From Henriciella barbarensis (lineage in GTDB: Bacteria > Pseudomonadota > Alphaproteobacteria > Caulobacterales > Hyphomonadaceae): a DNA stretch of 64,000 nucleotides. The stretch is taken from the NCBI RefSeq assembly GCF_003576345.1, contig NZ_QWGB01000005.1, forward strand, positions 806,001 through 870,000. Reading direction: 5' to 3'. A model generated the notes under the pieces. It was not told where the DNA came from, did not search any database, and was given only the letters and a program-made list of their open reading frames with translations. Made by a program: the position numbers and the translations under genes. Each line of letters opens with the position of its first letter. Within the stretch, counting starts at the first letter, position 1. This document shows, piece by piece, positions 40,377 to 43,978 of the stretch.

Positions 40377-40764
40377 GCGCGTCCAAGAGAGCGGAAATCA
40401 CAACCTCCTCCTGAGCGGCGCCTGCCCCGGCGAAGGCCGGGGTCGAAGGATGAAGCCCGAAATACTGACCTCGCCGCCCGCCTCACTCCTGATGAGCACC
40501 AGCTCATCTGGGGGCCCATCTCCCGCCAACCCGAACATCAAAGTCAGGAGATGGACCCTCAGACCGCTACGCGGTCGAGGGTGACGCCAACTCAAACCTA
40601 CCCCCCAATCCCGTCATCCCGGAAGAGCCGCCAGGCTCTATCCGGGACCCATGGCGGCTAAGCGCGCCTCTTCGAAACCAGCCCCCCACACACCTTCCCT
40701 ACACCGCCGCTTCAGCGCATCCTGCAATAGCTTCTACAGGTTACGCAGATGATGAGGCCCCCGC
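40373..40764. repeat. Intergenic region with palindromic repeats
   Basis: No gene is visible in about 390 bases. It holds a CCCCGGCGAAGGCCGGGG palindrome at about 40426-40443, which shares the GCGAAGGC centre of the repeats beside the GIY-YIG gene, and the first copy of a 49-bp element at 40611-40659. Confidence 0.6.
40611..40659 (+). repeat. 49-bp palindromic repeat, copy A
   Basis: Runs from CCGTCATCCCGGA to TCCGGGACCCATGGCGGCT with a hairpin AGAGCC-GCC-AGGCTCT region in the middle. It is identical to copy B at 40916-40964 and lies 105 bases before the small hydrophobic gene at 40765. Confidence 0.9.
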
Positions 40765-40902: not shown

Positions 40903-40915
40903 CCCGCCCCCAATT

Positions 40916-40964
40916 CCGTCATCCCGGAAGAGCCGCCAGGCTCTATCCGGGACCCATGGCGGCT
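40916..40964 (+). repeat. 49-bp palindromic repeat, copy B
   Basis: All 49 bases equal copy A. It begins 13 bases after the stop of the small hydrophobic gene. Confidence 0.9.
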
Positions 40965-40984: not shown

Positions 40985-41030
40985 AAACCTCCCCCCCTCC
41001 CGATCGCGGGAGAGGGGTCAGGGGTGGGGG
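40985..41030. repeat. GC-rich palindromic intergenic repeat
   Basis: CCTCCCCCCCTCCCGATC and GCGGGAGAGGGGTCAGGGGTGGGGG form an imperfect hairpin. It resembles the element after priA at 18831-18866. Confidence 0.6.
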
Positions 41031-41104: not shown

Positions 41105-41152
41105 ACCGCCATAGGTCCCGGATATTCGCAGAAGCGAATTCCGGGATGACGG
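41105..41152 (-). repeat. Inverted, covarying third copy of the 49-bp repeat
   Basis: Read on the minus strand it has the same ends (CCGTCATCCCGGAA and TCCGGGACCTATGGCGG), but the middle is ATTCGC-TTCT-GCGAAT in place of AGAGCC-GCC-AGGCTCT. The arm sequence changed on both sides so that pairing is kept. Confidence 0.75.
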
Positions 41153-41262: not shown

Positions 41263-42054
41263 ATGGAGCCGTACCAGCCGCTTTCCCGCTCGATCAAAGG
41301 CAAGACCGCCCTCATCACCGGCGCCGCCTCCGGCATGGGCCGGGCCACTGCCCACCTCTTTGCCCATGAAGGCGCGAATGTCGCCGTAACGGACCTCAAG
41401 CAGGACGCCGTCGACAAGGTCGTGGCTGAGATCAAGGCCGCCGGCTTCGACAACGTCAAAGGCTGGGCCATGGATGTCGGCGACGGCGAGGCGATCAAGC
41501 GCGTCGTCAAGGAAGCCGCGGAGCATTTCGGCGGCCTCGAAATCCTCGTCAACAATGCCGGTTTCGCCATCCCGGCCAACGTTGCCGAAGAAAGCTATGA
41601 GGACAGCTGGGGCCCCAGCATCAACGTCATGCTGACCAGCCACCAGCGCGCCATCCGCGCGGCCCTGCCCTATATGCGCAAGGCAAAGTTCGGCCGCATC
41701 GTGAACGTCGCCTCGACCGAAGGCGTCGGCGCGACCCCCGGCAACTCGCCTTACGTCGCTGCCAAGCACGGCGTCATCGGTCTCACCCGCGGCCTGGCGT
41801 GCGACCTTGGCCGCGAGGAAGACATGGACATCACCGTCAACTGCATCTGCCCTGGCCCCATCCGCACCGGCATCACCTCCGGCATCCCGGAAGAGCACAA
41901 GACCATCTACGCCAAGCGCCGCGTGCCGCTGCGCCGGTACGGCATCCCCGAAGAAGTCGCCAATATGACGCTTTCTGTCGTCCTCCCGGCCGCAAGCTTC
42001 CTCAACGGCGTCCACATCCCGGTCGACGGCGGCCTGACGATCAAGAATGCTTGA
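41263..42054 (+). CDS. Short-chain dehydrogenase/reductase
   Basis: A 263-residue classical SDR: TGAASGMGRATA at about residues 19-30, NNAGFAI, Ser in NVASTEGVG, YVAAK and PGPIRTGIT, and the C-terminal LNGVHIPVDGG. The substrate is unknown. GGAGGAG eight bases before the ATG at 41263 sets the start; an upstream frame to 41146 runs through repeats. Its last 21 codons are present again at 42853-42918. Confidence 0.9.
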   Translation: MEPYQPLSRSIKGKTALITGAASGMGRATAHLFAHEGANVAVTDLKQDAVDKVVAEIKAAGFDNVKGWAMDVGDGEAIKRVVKEAAEHFGGLEILVNNAGFAIPANVAEESYEDSWGPSINVMLTSHQRAIRAALPYMRKAKFGRIVNVASTEGVGATPGNSPYVAAKHGVIGLTRGLACDLGREEDMDITVNCICPGPIRTGITSGIPEEHKTIYAKRRVPLRRYGIPEEVANMTLSVVLPAASFLNGVHIPVDGGLTIKNA

Positions 42055-42060
42055 GGGGTA

Positions 42061-42131
42061 AGCGTTATTCCGACCCCTGGCTGAAAGATCGCCAGCGCGC
42101 TTGCCTTGTGTGAAGCGGTTGGGATAACGCT
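42061..42131. repeat. Inverted repeat just after the SDR gene
   Basis: A 15-base arm at 42061-42075 pairs with 42117-42131 with two mismatches, and a small CTGGC/GCCAG hairpin lies inside (42077-42081, 42091-42095). There is no T run, so a terminator is unlikely. The right arm ends seven bases before the next start codon. Confidence 0.6.
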
Positions 42132-42433: not shown

Positions 42434-42458
42434 GAAGATGCCTGCGAAAGCAGGTATC
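42434..42458 (+). repeat. 25-bp palindromic repeat, left flank of GIY-YIG gene
   Basis: GAAGATGCCTGCGAAAGCAG plus GTATC; the centre CCTGC-GAAA-GCAGG is self-complementary. It ends 22 bases before the GIY-YIG start and equals the right flank at 23 of 25 positions, in the same orientation. Confidence 0.85.
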
Positions 42459-42480
42459 GGCGGCGTCAGGATGAGACAGA

Positions 42481-42771
42481 ATGAAACCATTCTACGTCTA
42501 CATCCTCGCCAGTCAGAAGAACGGCACGCTCTTTACCGGCAGCACCGACGACATATCGAAACGCGTCTGGGAGCATAAACAAGGTCTCGGCGCCGCCTTC
42601 ACCCGCAAATATGCGGTCCACCGCCTCATCTGGCTTGAACCCCACGACTCCCGCGACAGCGCAAAGACCCGCGAATACCAGATCAAGGCATGGAAACGCG
42701 CCTGGACGCTAAAGCTGATCGAAGCCGAAAACCCGGACTGGCTCGACCTCTACCTCAAACTCAACCACTGA
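42481..42771 (+). CDS. GIY-YIG nuclease family protein
   Basis: A 96-residue single-domain GIY-YIG protein. VYI (residues 6-8) and FTG (18-20) take the places of the name-giving GIY and YIG; the catalytic Arg28 (SKRVWEHK) and Glu65 (REYQIKAWKR) are kept, and NPDWLDLY is the usual end. Proteins of this size are widespread, strain-variable and of unknown role; related domains act in homing endonucleases and in DNA repair. The gene is bracketed by 25-bp palindromic repeats at 22 and 26 bp and lies in a stretch that was inserted after the SDR gene, so it is a candidate mobile nuclease. Confidence 0.9.
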   Translation: MKPFYVYILASQKNGTLFTGSTDDISKRVWEHKQGLGAAFTRKYAVHRLIWLEPHDSRDSAKTREYQIKAWKRAWTLKLIEAENPDWLDLYLKLNH

Positions 42772-42797
42772 CCCCCACTCCCAAGCACCACCCTCCC

Positions 42798-42822
42798 GAA
42801 GATGCCTGCGAAGGCAGGCATC
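42798..42822 (+). repeat. 25-bp palindromic repeat, right flank of GIY-YIG gene
   Basis: GAAGATGCCTGCGAAGGCAG plus GCATC; the centre TGCCTGC-GAAG-GCAGGCA is a perfect 7-bp palindromic stem. It begins 26 bases after the GIY-YIG stop. A third, shorter member lies at 42938-42961. Confidence 0.85.
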
Positions 42823-42852
42823 CAAGGTGTAATCCGCTGCGCCTTCCCCTTC

Positions 42853-42918
42853 CGCCAGCTTCTCAACGGCGTCCACATCCCGGTCGATGGCGGGCTGACG
42901 ATCAAGAATGCTTGAGGG
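42853..42918 (+). pseudogene. Duplicate of the SDR gene 3' end
   Basis: The frame reads QLLNGVHIPVDGGLTIKNA and a stop. Against the end of the intact SDR gene (41992-42054) the last 19 codons differ only by two synonymous changes (GAC/GAT and GGC/GGG); likeness fades just upstream, where a one-base shift seems present. The few bases after the stop are also similar (TGAGGG then AAGC). The fragment cannot make a protein. Confidence 0.85.
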
Positions 42919-42937
42919 AAAAGCACCCACACTCCGA

Positions 42938-42961
42938 CGATAACTGCGAAGGCAGGTATCC
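42938..42961 (+). repeat. Third member of the GIY-YIG-associated repeat
   Basis: ACTGCGAAGGCAGGTATCC shares its centre and right half with the two flanking repeats, and, like copy two, runs on into CCAAGGTG. It lies 20 bases after the SDR 3' duplicate. Confidence 0.7.
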
Positions 42962-43120: not shown

Positions 43121-43978
43121 TCAGACGTTCCTGTTTCCCCTTTTTGCCAAGGTTAAATCAACGGCGTGGTCGTTGGCTTTAAAGAGCCAGTGCCGATACG
43201 GGTCTGTCCAGCGGTCTCTCGGTCCAAGATTTGTACCCGTGTTCACGCCTACATTAAAACCGGGCCTGATCTGTCGGATCTCAGTATTGATATGTCGGTA
43301 CAGTTTTTCCTTTGCGACAGTTCTTTTGCCGCGCCTTCGCGATCCATCCGGTTTTACGTATAATTTTCCGTTGAGTTGGGCGCACACGGACCCGAGGATG
43401 ATATCTAACCCCTGCAAAATCACGTGCTCTGATGAGTCGATGTCATTGATGTGTCGCACCGGTATGGTGACATTTATTCCACGCATATCGTAGGCTTCGG
43501 GTATGCTACTGACACGTGATTTGAACGCGCGAATTTTCTCGCCATTCTCTGGAATTTGATCGGGAAAGATGTGGAAGTAGACCCGATCCAGGCTGTTAGG
43601 GTTGCAGTACTTGATCCCAAAAGCGTGCTTGTAGAATTGGTAATACAGCCGGAGATAGCGTTCTTCGACTTGCTCTTTCGAAAGTCCCTTGGGTACGTGA
43701 ATATTCTGGGTAAACATCAGCCGCACCCGGAGCCGAGAGGTCGCTACAAACGAGAAGTAGAATGAGATGAATTCCTTGTACTTCTCAAGGTAGTTAGCGG
43801 TCACGCGATCCCATTTGATTTCGCGGTTGAGATTTAGCTCTATTTTCTTTTCATTGAGCAGCGCATCGATCTCTTCTCGATCTTCGGCCTTGAGCAGAAC
43901 TCCCCCAAAGAAGTTGGAGTAGTATTTTCCCTTCTTGTCGGATTCATCGCTATATATGATGTAATGACGTTTCGCCAT
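43121..43978 (-). CDS. DUF3800 domain protein
   Basis: A 285-residue protein with the DUF3800 start YIIYSDESDKKGKYYSNFFGGVLL (DES motif at residues 11-13) and the second motif EHVILQGLDIILGSVCA, followed by ANDHAVDLTL near the end. The fold is RNase H-like with conserved acidic residues, so nuclease activity is likely but not shown for the family. Genes of this kind are scattered among mobile and defence-related loci. The gene is far richer in A and T than its neighbours and uses rarer codons, which indicates recent arrival. Confidence 0.85.
   Translation of the reverse strand: MAKRHYIIYSDESDKKGKYYSNFFGGVLLKAEDREEIDALLNEKKIELNLNREIKWDRVTANYLEKYKEFISFYFSFVATSRLRVRLMFTQNIHVPKGLSKEQVEERYLRLYYQFYKHAFGIKYCNPNSLDRVYFHIFPDQIPENGEKIRAFKSRVSSIPEAYDMRGINVTIPVRHINDIDSSEHVILQGLDIILGSVCAQLNGKLYVKPDGSRRRGKRTVAKEKLYRHINTEIRQIRPGFNVGVNTGTNLGPRDRWTDPYRHWLFKANDHAVDLTLAKRGNRNV

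Follow-up and report, generated by a model that had tools for sequence, protein, structure and literature searches.

The 64,000-nucleotide stretch of Henriciella barbarensis DNA analysed here (the window; contig NZ_QWGB01000005.1, positions 806,001 to 870,000) contains a small stand-alone GIY-YIG nuclease gene bracketed by near-identical palindromes. Comparison of this locus with homologous loci (genomes and loci are designated below by G and L numbers) indicates that the clade of ~95-residue GIY-YIG proteins to which its product belongs is probably the dedicated partner enzyme, with a putative catalytic role, of a class of repetitive extragenic palindromic (REP) sequences. The clade would thus be an analogue, of unrelated fold, of the REP-associated tyrosine transposases (RAYTs). 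Confidence is very high for the association between gene and REPs, and high for the mobility of the block that they form; the GIY-YIG protein is the likely, though unproved, mover of the repeats. This assignment is made because the co-localisation is specific, the unit ends at the REP tags, sites differ between species and can be empty, and REP class tracks protein clade. A sequence-only reading of the window had proposed that a small GIY-YIG protein moves or maintains palindromic repeats; co-localisation, co-occurrence and differing sites now support this interpretation, with the protein as the presumed agent of movement.

The features of the window locus are as follows.

42434..42458, + strand: palindromic repeat 1, 25 bp, with a 9-bp stem and GAAA loop, 22 bp 5' of the GIY-YIG start
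42481..42771, + strand: small stand-alone GIY-YIG nuclease gene, 291 bp, 96 aa (open reading frame plus Pfam PF01541)
42798..42822, + strand: palindromic repeat 2, with a 9-bp stem, GAAG loop and CCA-like tail, 26 bp 3' of the GIY-YIG stop
42936..42960, + strand: palindromic repeat 3, decayed, in the orientation of repeats 1 and 2
40425..40442, + strand: palindrome CCCCGGCGAAGGCCGGGG, with the centre of repeats 1-3 and a different stem

Repeats 1 and 2 lie on the same strand and share 23 of 25 bases, and the layout first described (a GIY-YIG gene between 25-bp palindromes of one orientation) is borne out by coordinates and alignment. The palindrome of different stem likewise exists and has the shared centre, but its position is one base to the left of the 40426-40443 first given; its CCGG stem type also surrounds another GIY-YIG gene in the same genome (L001/L062). 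Allowing up to three mismatches, TGCCTGCGAARGCAGG has 8 matches in the window against 2.1 expected, a number reached in 0 of 100 shuffles; with up to two mismatches, the only matches are the three repeats adjoining the gene. DNA folding of repeats 1, 2 and 3 gives z values of -2.4, -5.3 and -2.7, respectively.

Similar repeats are found next to the homologues of this gene elsewhere. Among 397 genomes of the phylum, 173 match the gene at E <= 1e-8. When 138 loci were examined (a sample that includes near-duplicates, and in which the genes of L043, L056 and L057 are weak or partial), a GAAR hairpin was present within 300 bp in 56, and on both sides in 34; hairpin density is 40 and 48 per nearest 100-bp bin, and 0-3 per bin beyond 300 bp. 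(It should be noted that the GAAR detector is blind to REPs with five-base loops, and that where a GAAR hairpin is absent, palindromes with a CTTG-type loop of five bases are often found in its place.) From each genome's own core count, with genome sizes set low, the generic core CCNGCGAARGCNGG would be expected within 200 bp of the gene in 0.95 of 108 loci, and it is observed in 31; in genomes with no more than 30 core matches, 15 of 77 loci have a core at this distance, compared with 0.16 expected. In a test that makes no use of hairpins, the two 200-bp flanks of the gene match each other in 133 of 181 loci (the usable ones of 188), whereas matches are seen in 0 of 169 pairs taken 700-900 bp out and in 45 of 540 pairs from different loci.

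Outside the window's genus these repeats are mostly of a class already described, the CGTC-tagged REPs defined by Di Nocera et al. 2013, of which dRS3 and RPE-6/RPE-4 are members (PMC3733652). In a replication set consisting of the best 80 of 565 confirmed loci, taken from named genomes, a CGTC-tagged hairpin lies within 200 bp of the gene at 42 loci, and on both sides at 27. Tagged REPs occur in 69 of 160 flanks of the gene, versus 12 of 220 flanks of neighbouring open reading frames, and account for 69 of the 91 hairpin-bearing flanks. The 42 loci include records labelled Nitrospirae, Bacteroidetes, Flavobacteriaceae, Omnitrophus and Patescibacteria, several of which are metagenome bins with unconfirmed labels. 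REPs are about as frequent upstream of the gene as downstream. Palindromes are also present near the gene in 8 of 9 loci from a plasmid collection; at the R. tumorigenes plasmid locus they begin only 187 bp downstream and have no CGTC tag, and no palindrome was found near the gene in Novosphingobium pNL2 (L198). The N. gonorrhoeae locus weighs little by itself, because it sits within a dense dRS3 array. The flank matches and the tagged REPs together answer the objection that the repeats might be absent beside homologues of the gene.

The usual unit consists of a hairpin preceded by [C/T]GTC, the gene, and a hairpin followed by GAC. In 48 tagged units the length ranges from 346 to 612 bp with a median of 383; CGTC or TGTC forms the tag on the left in all 48 and on the right in 47, the detector itself having selected for GTC. 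Where both nearest repeats are tagged, they are in the + orientation upstream and the - orientation downstream, so that the tags face outward, in 19 of 26 cases in the named set and in 18 of 29 in the phylum set (L067-L174, four loci of which are from the window's genus). After removal of duplicates and of loci scoring under 100, which left 134 loci for the loop and arm comparisons, arm agreement between upstream and downstream repeats of one locus is 0.92, compared with 0.715 when shuffled (n = 33). Placed on the protein tree, with host phylogeny uncontrolled, REP loop class requires 16 changes as opposed to 44.8 when shuffled (150 loci), and 16 as opposed to 40.0 for loci L067 and above (129 loci, one from the window's genus). 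Furthermore, three GIY-YIG genes in one genome are surrounded by three different repeat stems, which argues that the gene matters as well as the host.

Evidence for mobility comes from comparisons between species. G153 belongs to a genus represented by 40 genomes; there, the L157 unit of 380 bp has matches by itself at other locations in G423, G424 and G456, with alignments that end at the tags, and in part in G448 and G449; both ends of the unit lie at tags in G153, G423, G424 and G456. The 500-bp flanks of these units show no match to each other except for G449 with G456 and for one 28-bp REP, so the units occupy five distinct sites. The flanks of the G153 unit are separated by 32 bp in G424, whose own unit is at another place, and by 24 bp in G444; neither empty junction contains a tagged or GAAR hairpin. 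Thus a hallmark of DNA transposons, a unit of fixed ends at several sites of one genus together with a site that lacks it in two species, is found here, and repeat-gene-repeat units do occupy different sites, as had been anticipated, albeit between species rather than strains. A second case is provided by Azospirillum lipoferum 4B, in which a REP-gene block lies between sufB and sufC of the suf operon. In A. ramasamyi, A. oryzae and B510, sufC is annotated directly after sufB, and an unannotated A. argentinense record aligns likewise; the sufB-sufC gaps of these four records contain no tagged or GAAR hairpin. Among the matches listed, at least seven more Azospirillum records align as two segments that leave out the block. 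A separate GIY-YIG unit with a different REP class occupies the sufB-sufC gap of Shinella sp. PSBB067.

The presence of REPs and of the gene is also correlated across genomes. When a genome is called REP-rich if its CCNGCGAARGCNGG count exceeds that of the reversed pattern by at least 15, and the gene is scored as a strong GIY-YIG match (~1e-18 or better), 53 of the 397 genomes are REP-rich, 42 with the gene and 11 without it, while the 344 others comprise 70 with and 274 without (odds ratio 15). Shuffling labels within families yields p = 5e-5, the smallest value possible with 20000 shuffles; REP excess therefore follows gene presence, as the sequence-only reading would have it. Some of the 70 genomes that have the gene and no excess of the CCNGCGAARGCNGG core have REPs with other loops. 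From this co-occurrence it is plausible that gene-less REPs are copied by the GIY-YIG protein.

The product of the window gene matches PF01541 (GIY-YIG; 58 bits) and no other Pfam family. Its predicted structure is a confident GIY-YIG fold (mean pLDDT 92.7) that matches UPF0213, which ranks at the top in Foldseek, as well as Slx1, I-TevI and UvrC domains; the small nuclease is thus predicted to be Slx1-like in fold. Slx1, a structure-specific nuclease, differs in being eukaryotic and larger and in having the partner Slx4, and the structural match is of middling Z. UPF0213 proteins share the single GIY-YIG domain of about 95 aa. A sequence search for solved structures found only two, 1zg2 and 1ywl, whose titles call them hypothetical proteins; REP flanks set the present clade apart from them, as do W71, W75 and W87, which are conserved within it. 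The GIY-YIG active site comprises a Tyr-Tyr-Arg-Glu-Asn set. The window protein keeps the conserved residues Y7, R28, H32, E65 and N84, and its residue 18 is Phe; of 244 aligned relatives, 243 have Tyr there. From this one residue, its activity may be impaired.

Taken together, these comparisons lead to a model in which the partner REPs would be GCGAARGC-centred or CTTG-looped hairpins whose two feet usually carry [C/T]GTC and CC, and the minimal mobile unit, of ~380 bp, would be one gene between two inverted REPs with tags outward. The nuclease would recognise the REP hairpin, whether formed by a single strand or present as a cruciform, and nick at the hairpin foot, and host repair or recombination would complete insertion. 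Gene-less REPs and inverted REP pairs would then be non-autonomous derivatives of the unit and relate to it in the way that REPs and REPINs relate to RAYT genes. In PMC3733652, RAYTs are described as HUH-tyrosine transposases of the IS200/IS605 group associated with GTAG-tagged REPs. Both systems combine a small gene, set between extragenic palindromes, with inverted pairs of REPs and with dispersed gene-less ones; REPs on both sides of the gene, a hallmark of REP/RAYT, are seen in the window as well as at the loci counted above. They differ in that the gene here encodes an unrelated GIY-YIG nuclease and that, outside the window's genus, most of the REPs are CGTC-tagged. Membership in the REP/RAYT (TnpA-REP) family proper is ruled out by the lack of an HUH-tyrosine transposase (PF01541 being the only domain) and of a GTAG tag, and the likeness is functional only.

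PMC3733652 gives CGTC repeats loops of 4 or 5 bases and describes them as apparently without a dedicated transposase gene. Outside the window's genus, the [C/T]GTC tag, AT-first stem, 4- or 5-base loop and CCA tail of this class are seen in many of the flanking repeats. Repeat 2 of the window can itself be read as ATGCCTGC-GAAG-GCAGGCAT-CCA, which has the stem of 8-9 bp with AT first, the 4-5 base loop and the CCA-like tail of a CGTC-REP; the window copies, however, have CGAA or CGAC at the foot, which is neither GTAG nor CGTC/TGTC/CCTC. High genomic copy number, another hallmark of the class (about 650-725 dRS3 copies are tabulated per Neisseria meningitidis genome in PMC3898611), is also lacking in the window's genome. 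For CGTC-type REPs including dRS3, a named candidate enzyme that travels between two copies makes their origin directly testable, and the unit could explain the spread of widespread bacterial DNA repeats for which there is no known enzyme. If so, unrelated nucleases would have entered into the REP/transposase partnership on more than one occasion, and a mobile unit that is very small and has a single domain would become available for study. No paper joining CGTC-tagged REPs to GIY-YIG genes was found in search listings of an open-licence library without preprints; priority is not established.

Other explanations of the layout can be considered. Free-standing GIY-YIG homing endonucleases are, like the present unit, stand-alone nuclease genes that spread themselves. 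Under homing, the endonuclease would cut empty REP sites and be copied in by REP-gene-REP repair, with the REPs serving as homology arms and spreading by other means. A lone REP with a degenerate partner does occur at a site without the gene in the window's genus (G016, see below), but no tagged or GAAR hairpin is present in the empty sufB-sufC gaps or at the G424 and G444 junctions, and the commonest form, one REP per side with tags outward (37 of 55 pairs), is not the direct-repeat duplicate of a pre-existing site. In addition, the ends here are REPs, the target is not a fixed allele, and 96 aa hold no added DNA-binding domain; homing is accordingly considered unlikely. A still less probable explanation is that REPs are passive hot spots for recombination or capture of small horizontally acquired genes, with no role for the nuclease. 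PMC3898611 discusses dRS3 as sites of recombination and phage integration, and within the window's genus a REP-gene-REP segment with CCGG/CCCG stems keeps its place but is inverted from one species to another (L062 1445-1899 versus L058, L048 and L060), as recombination of inverted REPs would yield. Passive capture is nevertheless difficult to reconcile with the scarcity of tagged REPs beside neighbouring open reading frames, the narrow range of unit size, and a control with equally small DUF559 genes: in the best-scoring loci from the same 397 genomes (L319-L348, 29 of 30 used), a tagged hairpin accompanies only 2 of 29, both from a different repeat family. Least probable of all, to the point of being nearly dismissed, is that the hairpins are ordinary regulatory elements of the gene itself, either terminators or mRNA protectors. 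REPs are known mostly downstream of genes (PMC3733652) and the window hairpins fold well, yet at these loci REPs occur upstream about as often as downstream, the mobile block begins and ends at the repeats, and the same repeats also occur without the gene.

Several observations weigh against the GIY-YIG protein as mover of the repeats. A target-site duplication of at least 4 bp was found in 0 of the 48 tagged units. Two of the five sites in the G153 genus keep only one unit end; the flanks of the G153 unit are 574 bp apart in G153 itself and the unit is 380 bp, meaning that the empty G424 and G444 sites lack more than the unit; and 29 further genomes in which both flanks are listed have gaps of 144-4005 bp. 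With the detector used, 94 of 244 homologues lack a REP of either loop class within 200 bp. At least four REP-rich genomes (G060, G131, G065 and G081) show a single GIY-YIG gene of UvrC size, its identity taken from a length of 667-714 aa, for which gene loss or another mover are suggested alternatives; in five others (G261, G239, G384, G412 and G300) no GAAR hairpin was found close to the small GIY-YIG loci. REP class could track the lineage of the host just as well as the protein clade.

The window unit itself is a further such point, as its gene is vertically inherited in six species. A gene match is present in 21 of 29 genomes of the window's genus, and the unit lies downstream of the same short-chain dehydrogenase/reductase (SDR) gene in G000, G001, G003, G004, G006 and G023, with repeats present in 6 of 6. 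Because of this shared site, the unit is read from its position as an old, inherited copy rather than a recent jumper. Among the 23 genomes of the genus without the gene at the SDR site, G016 has a repeat and a degenerate inverted partner directly after the SDR gene, and G007 has one repeat, 888 bp away; a six-pair hairpin in G027 was left out of the count. The copies in this genus have CGAA, CGCA or GCTC where CGTC would stand. In some of its genomes, as in Azospirillum lipoferum, an inverted REP pair rather than a single REP stands on each side of the gene, and inverted pairs without a gene also occur. The description of a genome-wide palindromic repeat family proved too strong for the window's own 3.33-Mb genome: CCTGCGAARGCAGG has 6 exact matches there, 2 of which are the window's own repeats, and CCNGCGAARGCNGG has 27 versus 7 for the reversed control.

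The DUF559 genes used as a control are flanked by palindromes of their own, of CCCTCTCCC type, and both flanks match in 11 of 29 as against 0 of 28 distant flanks. In Sphingomonas parapaucimobilis, sufB and sufC are separated by one such DUF559 unit (L317 1661-2093). The sufB-sufC gap thus holds a palindrome-flanked nuclease gene in three records (L196, L318 and L317), with three palindrome types, GIY-YIG twice and DUF559 once. A broader proposal, offered tentatively and judged somewhat short of an even chance, is that several unrelated small nucleases maintain extragenic palindromes and that each has a hairpin family to itself, namely GTAG REPs for HUH RAYTs, CGTC-type REPs for GIY-YIG proteins and CCCTCTCCC palindromes for the nuclease-like DUF559 proteins. 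The ~380-bp GIY-YIG unit would then be among the smallest autonomous DNA transposons, moved by a single-domain structure-specific nuclease plus host repair.

Two other features adjoin the unit in the window.

42852..42924, + strand: duplicated 3' terminus of the SDR gene upstream (41990-42063 in the original), flanked by repeats 2 and 3; from self-comparison
43121-43978, - strand: DUF3800 gene, adjoining the repeat-gene-repeat unit

Over 74 alignment columns the SDR tail copy is 92% identical to its original, and its position between two of the repeats suggests that alleles have recombined locally. Upstream, a palindrome resembling the DUF559-associated type is present at 40992-41017, and two 58-bp repeats that are 98% identical (40602-40659 and 40907-40964) contain a CGTC-tagged composite palindrome, with an inverted relative near 41110-41146.
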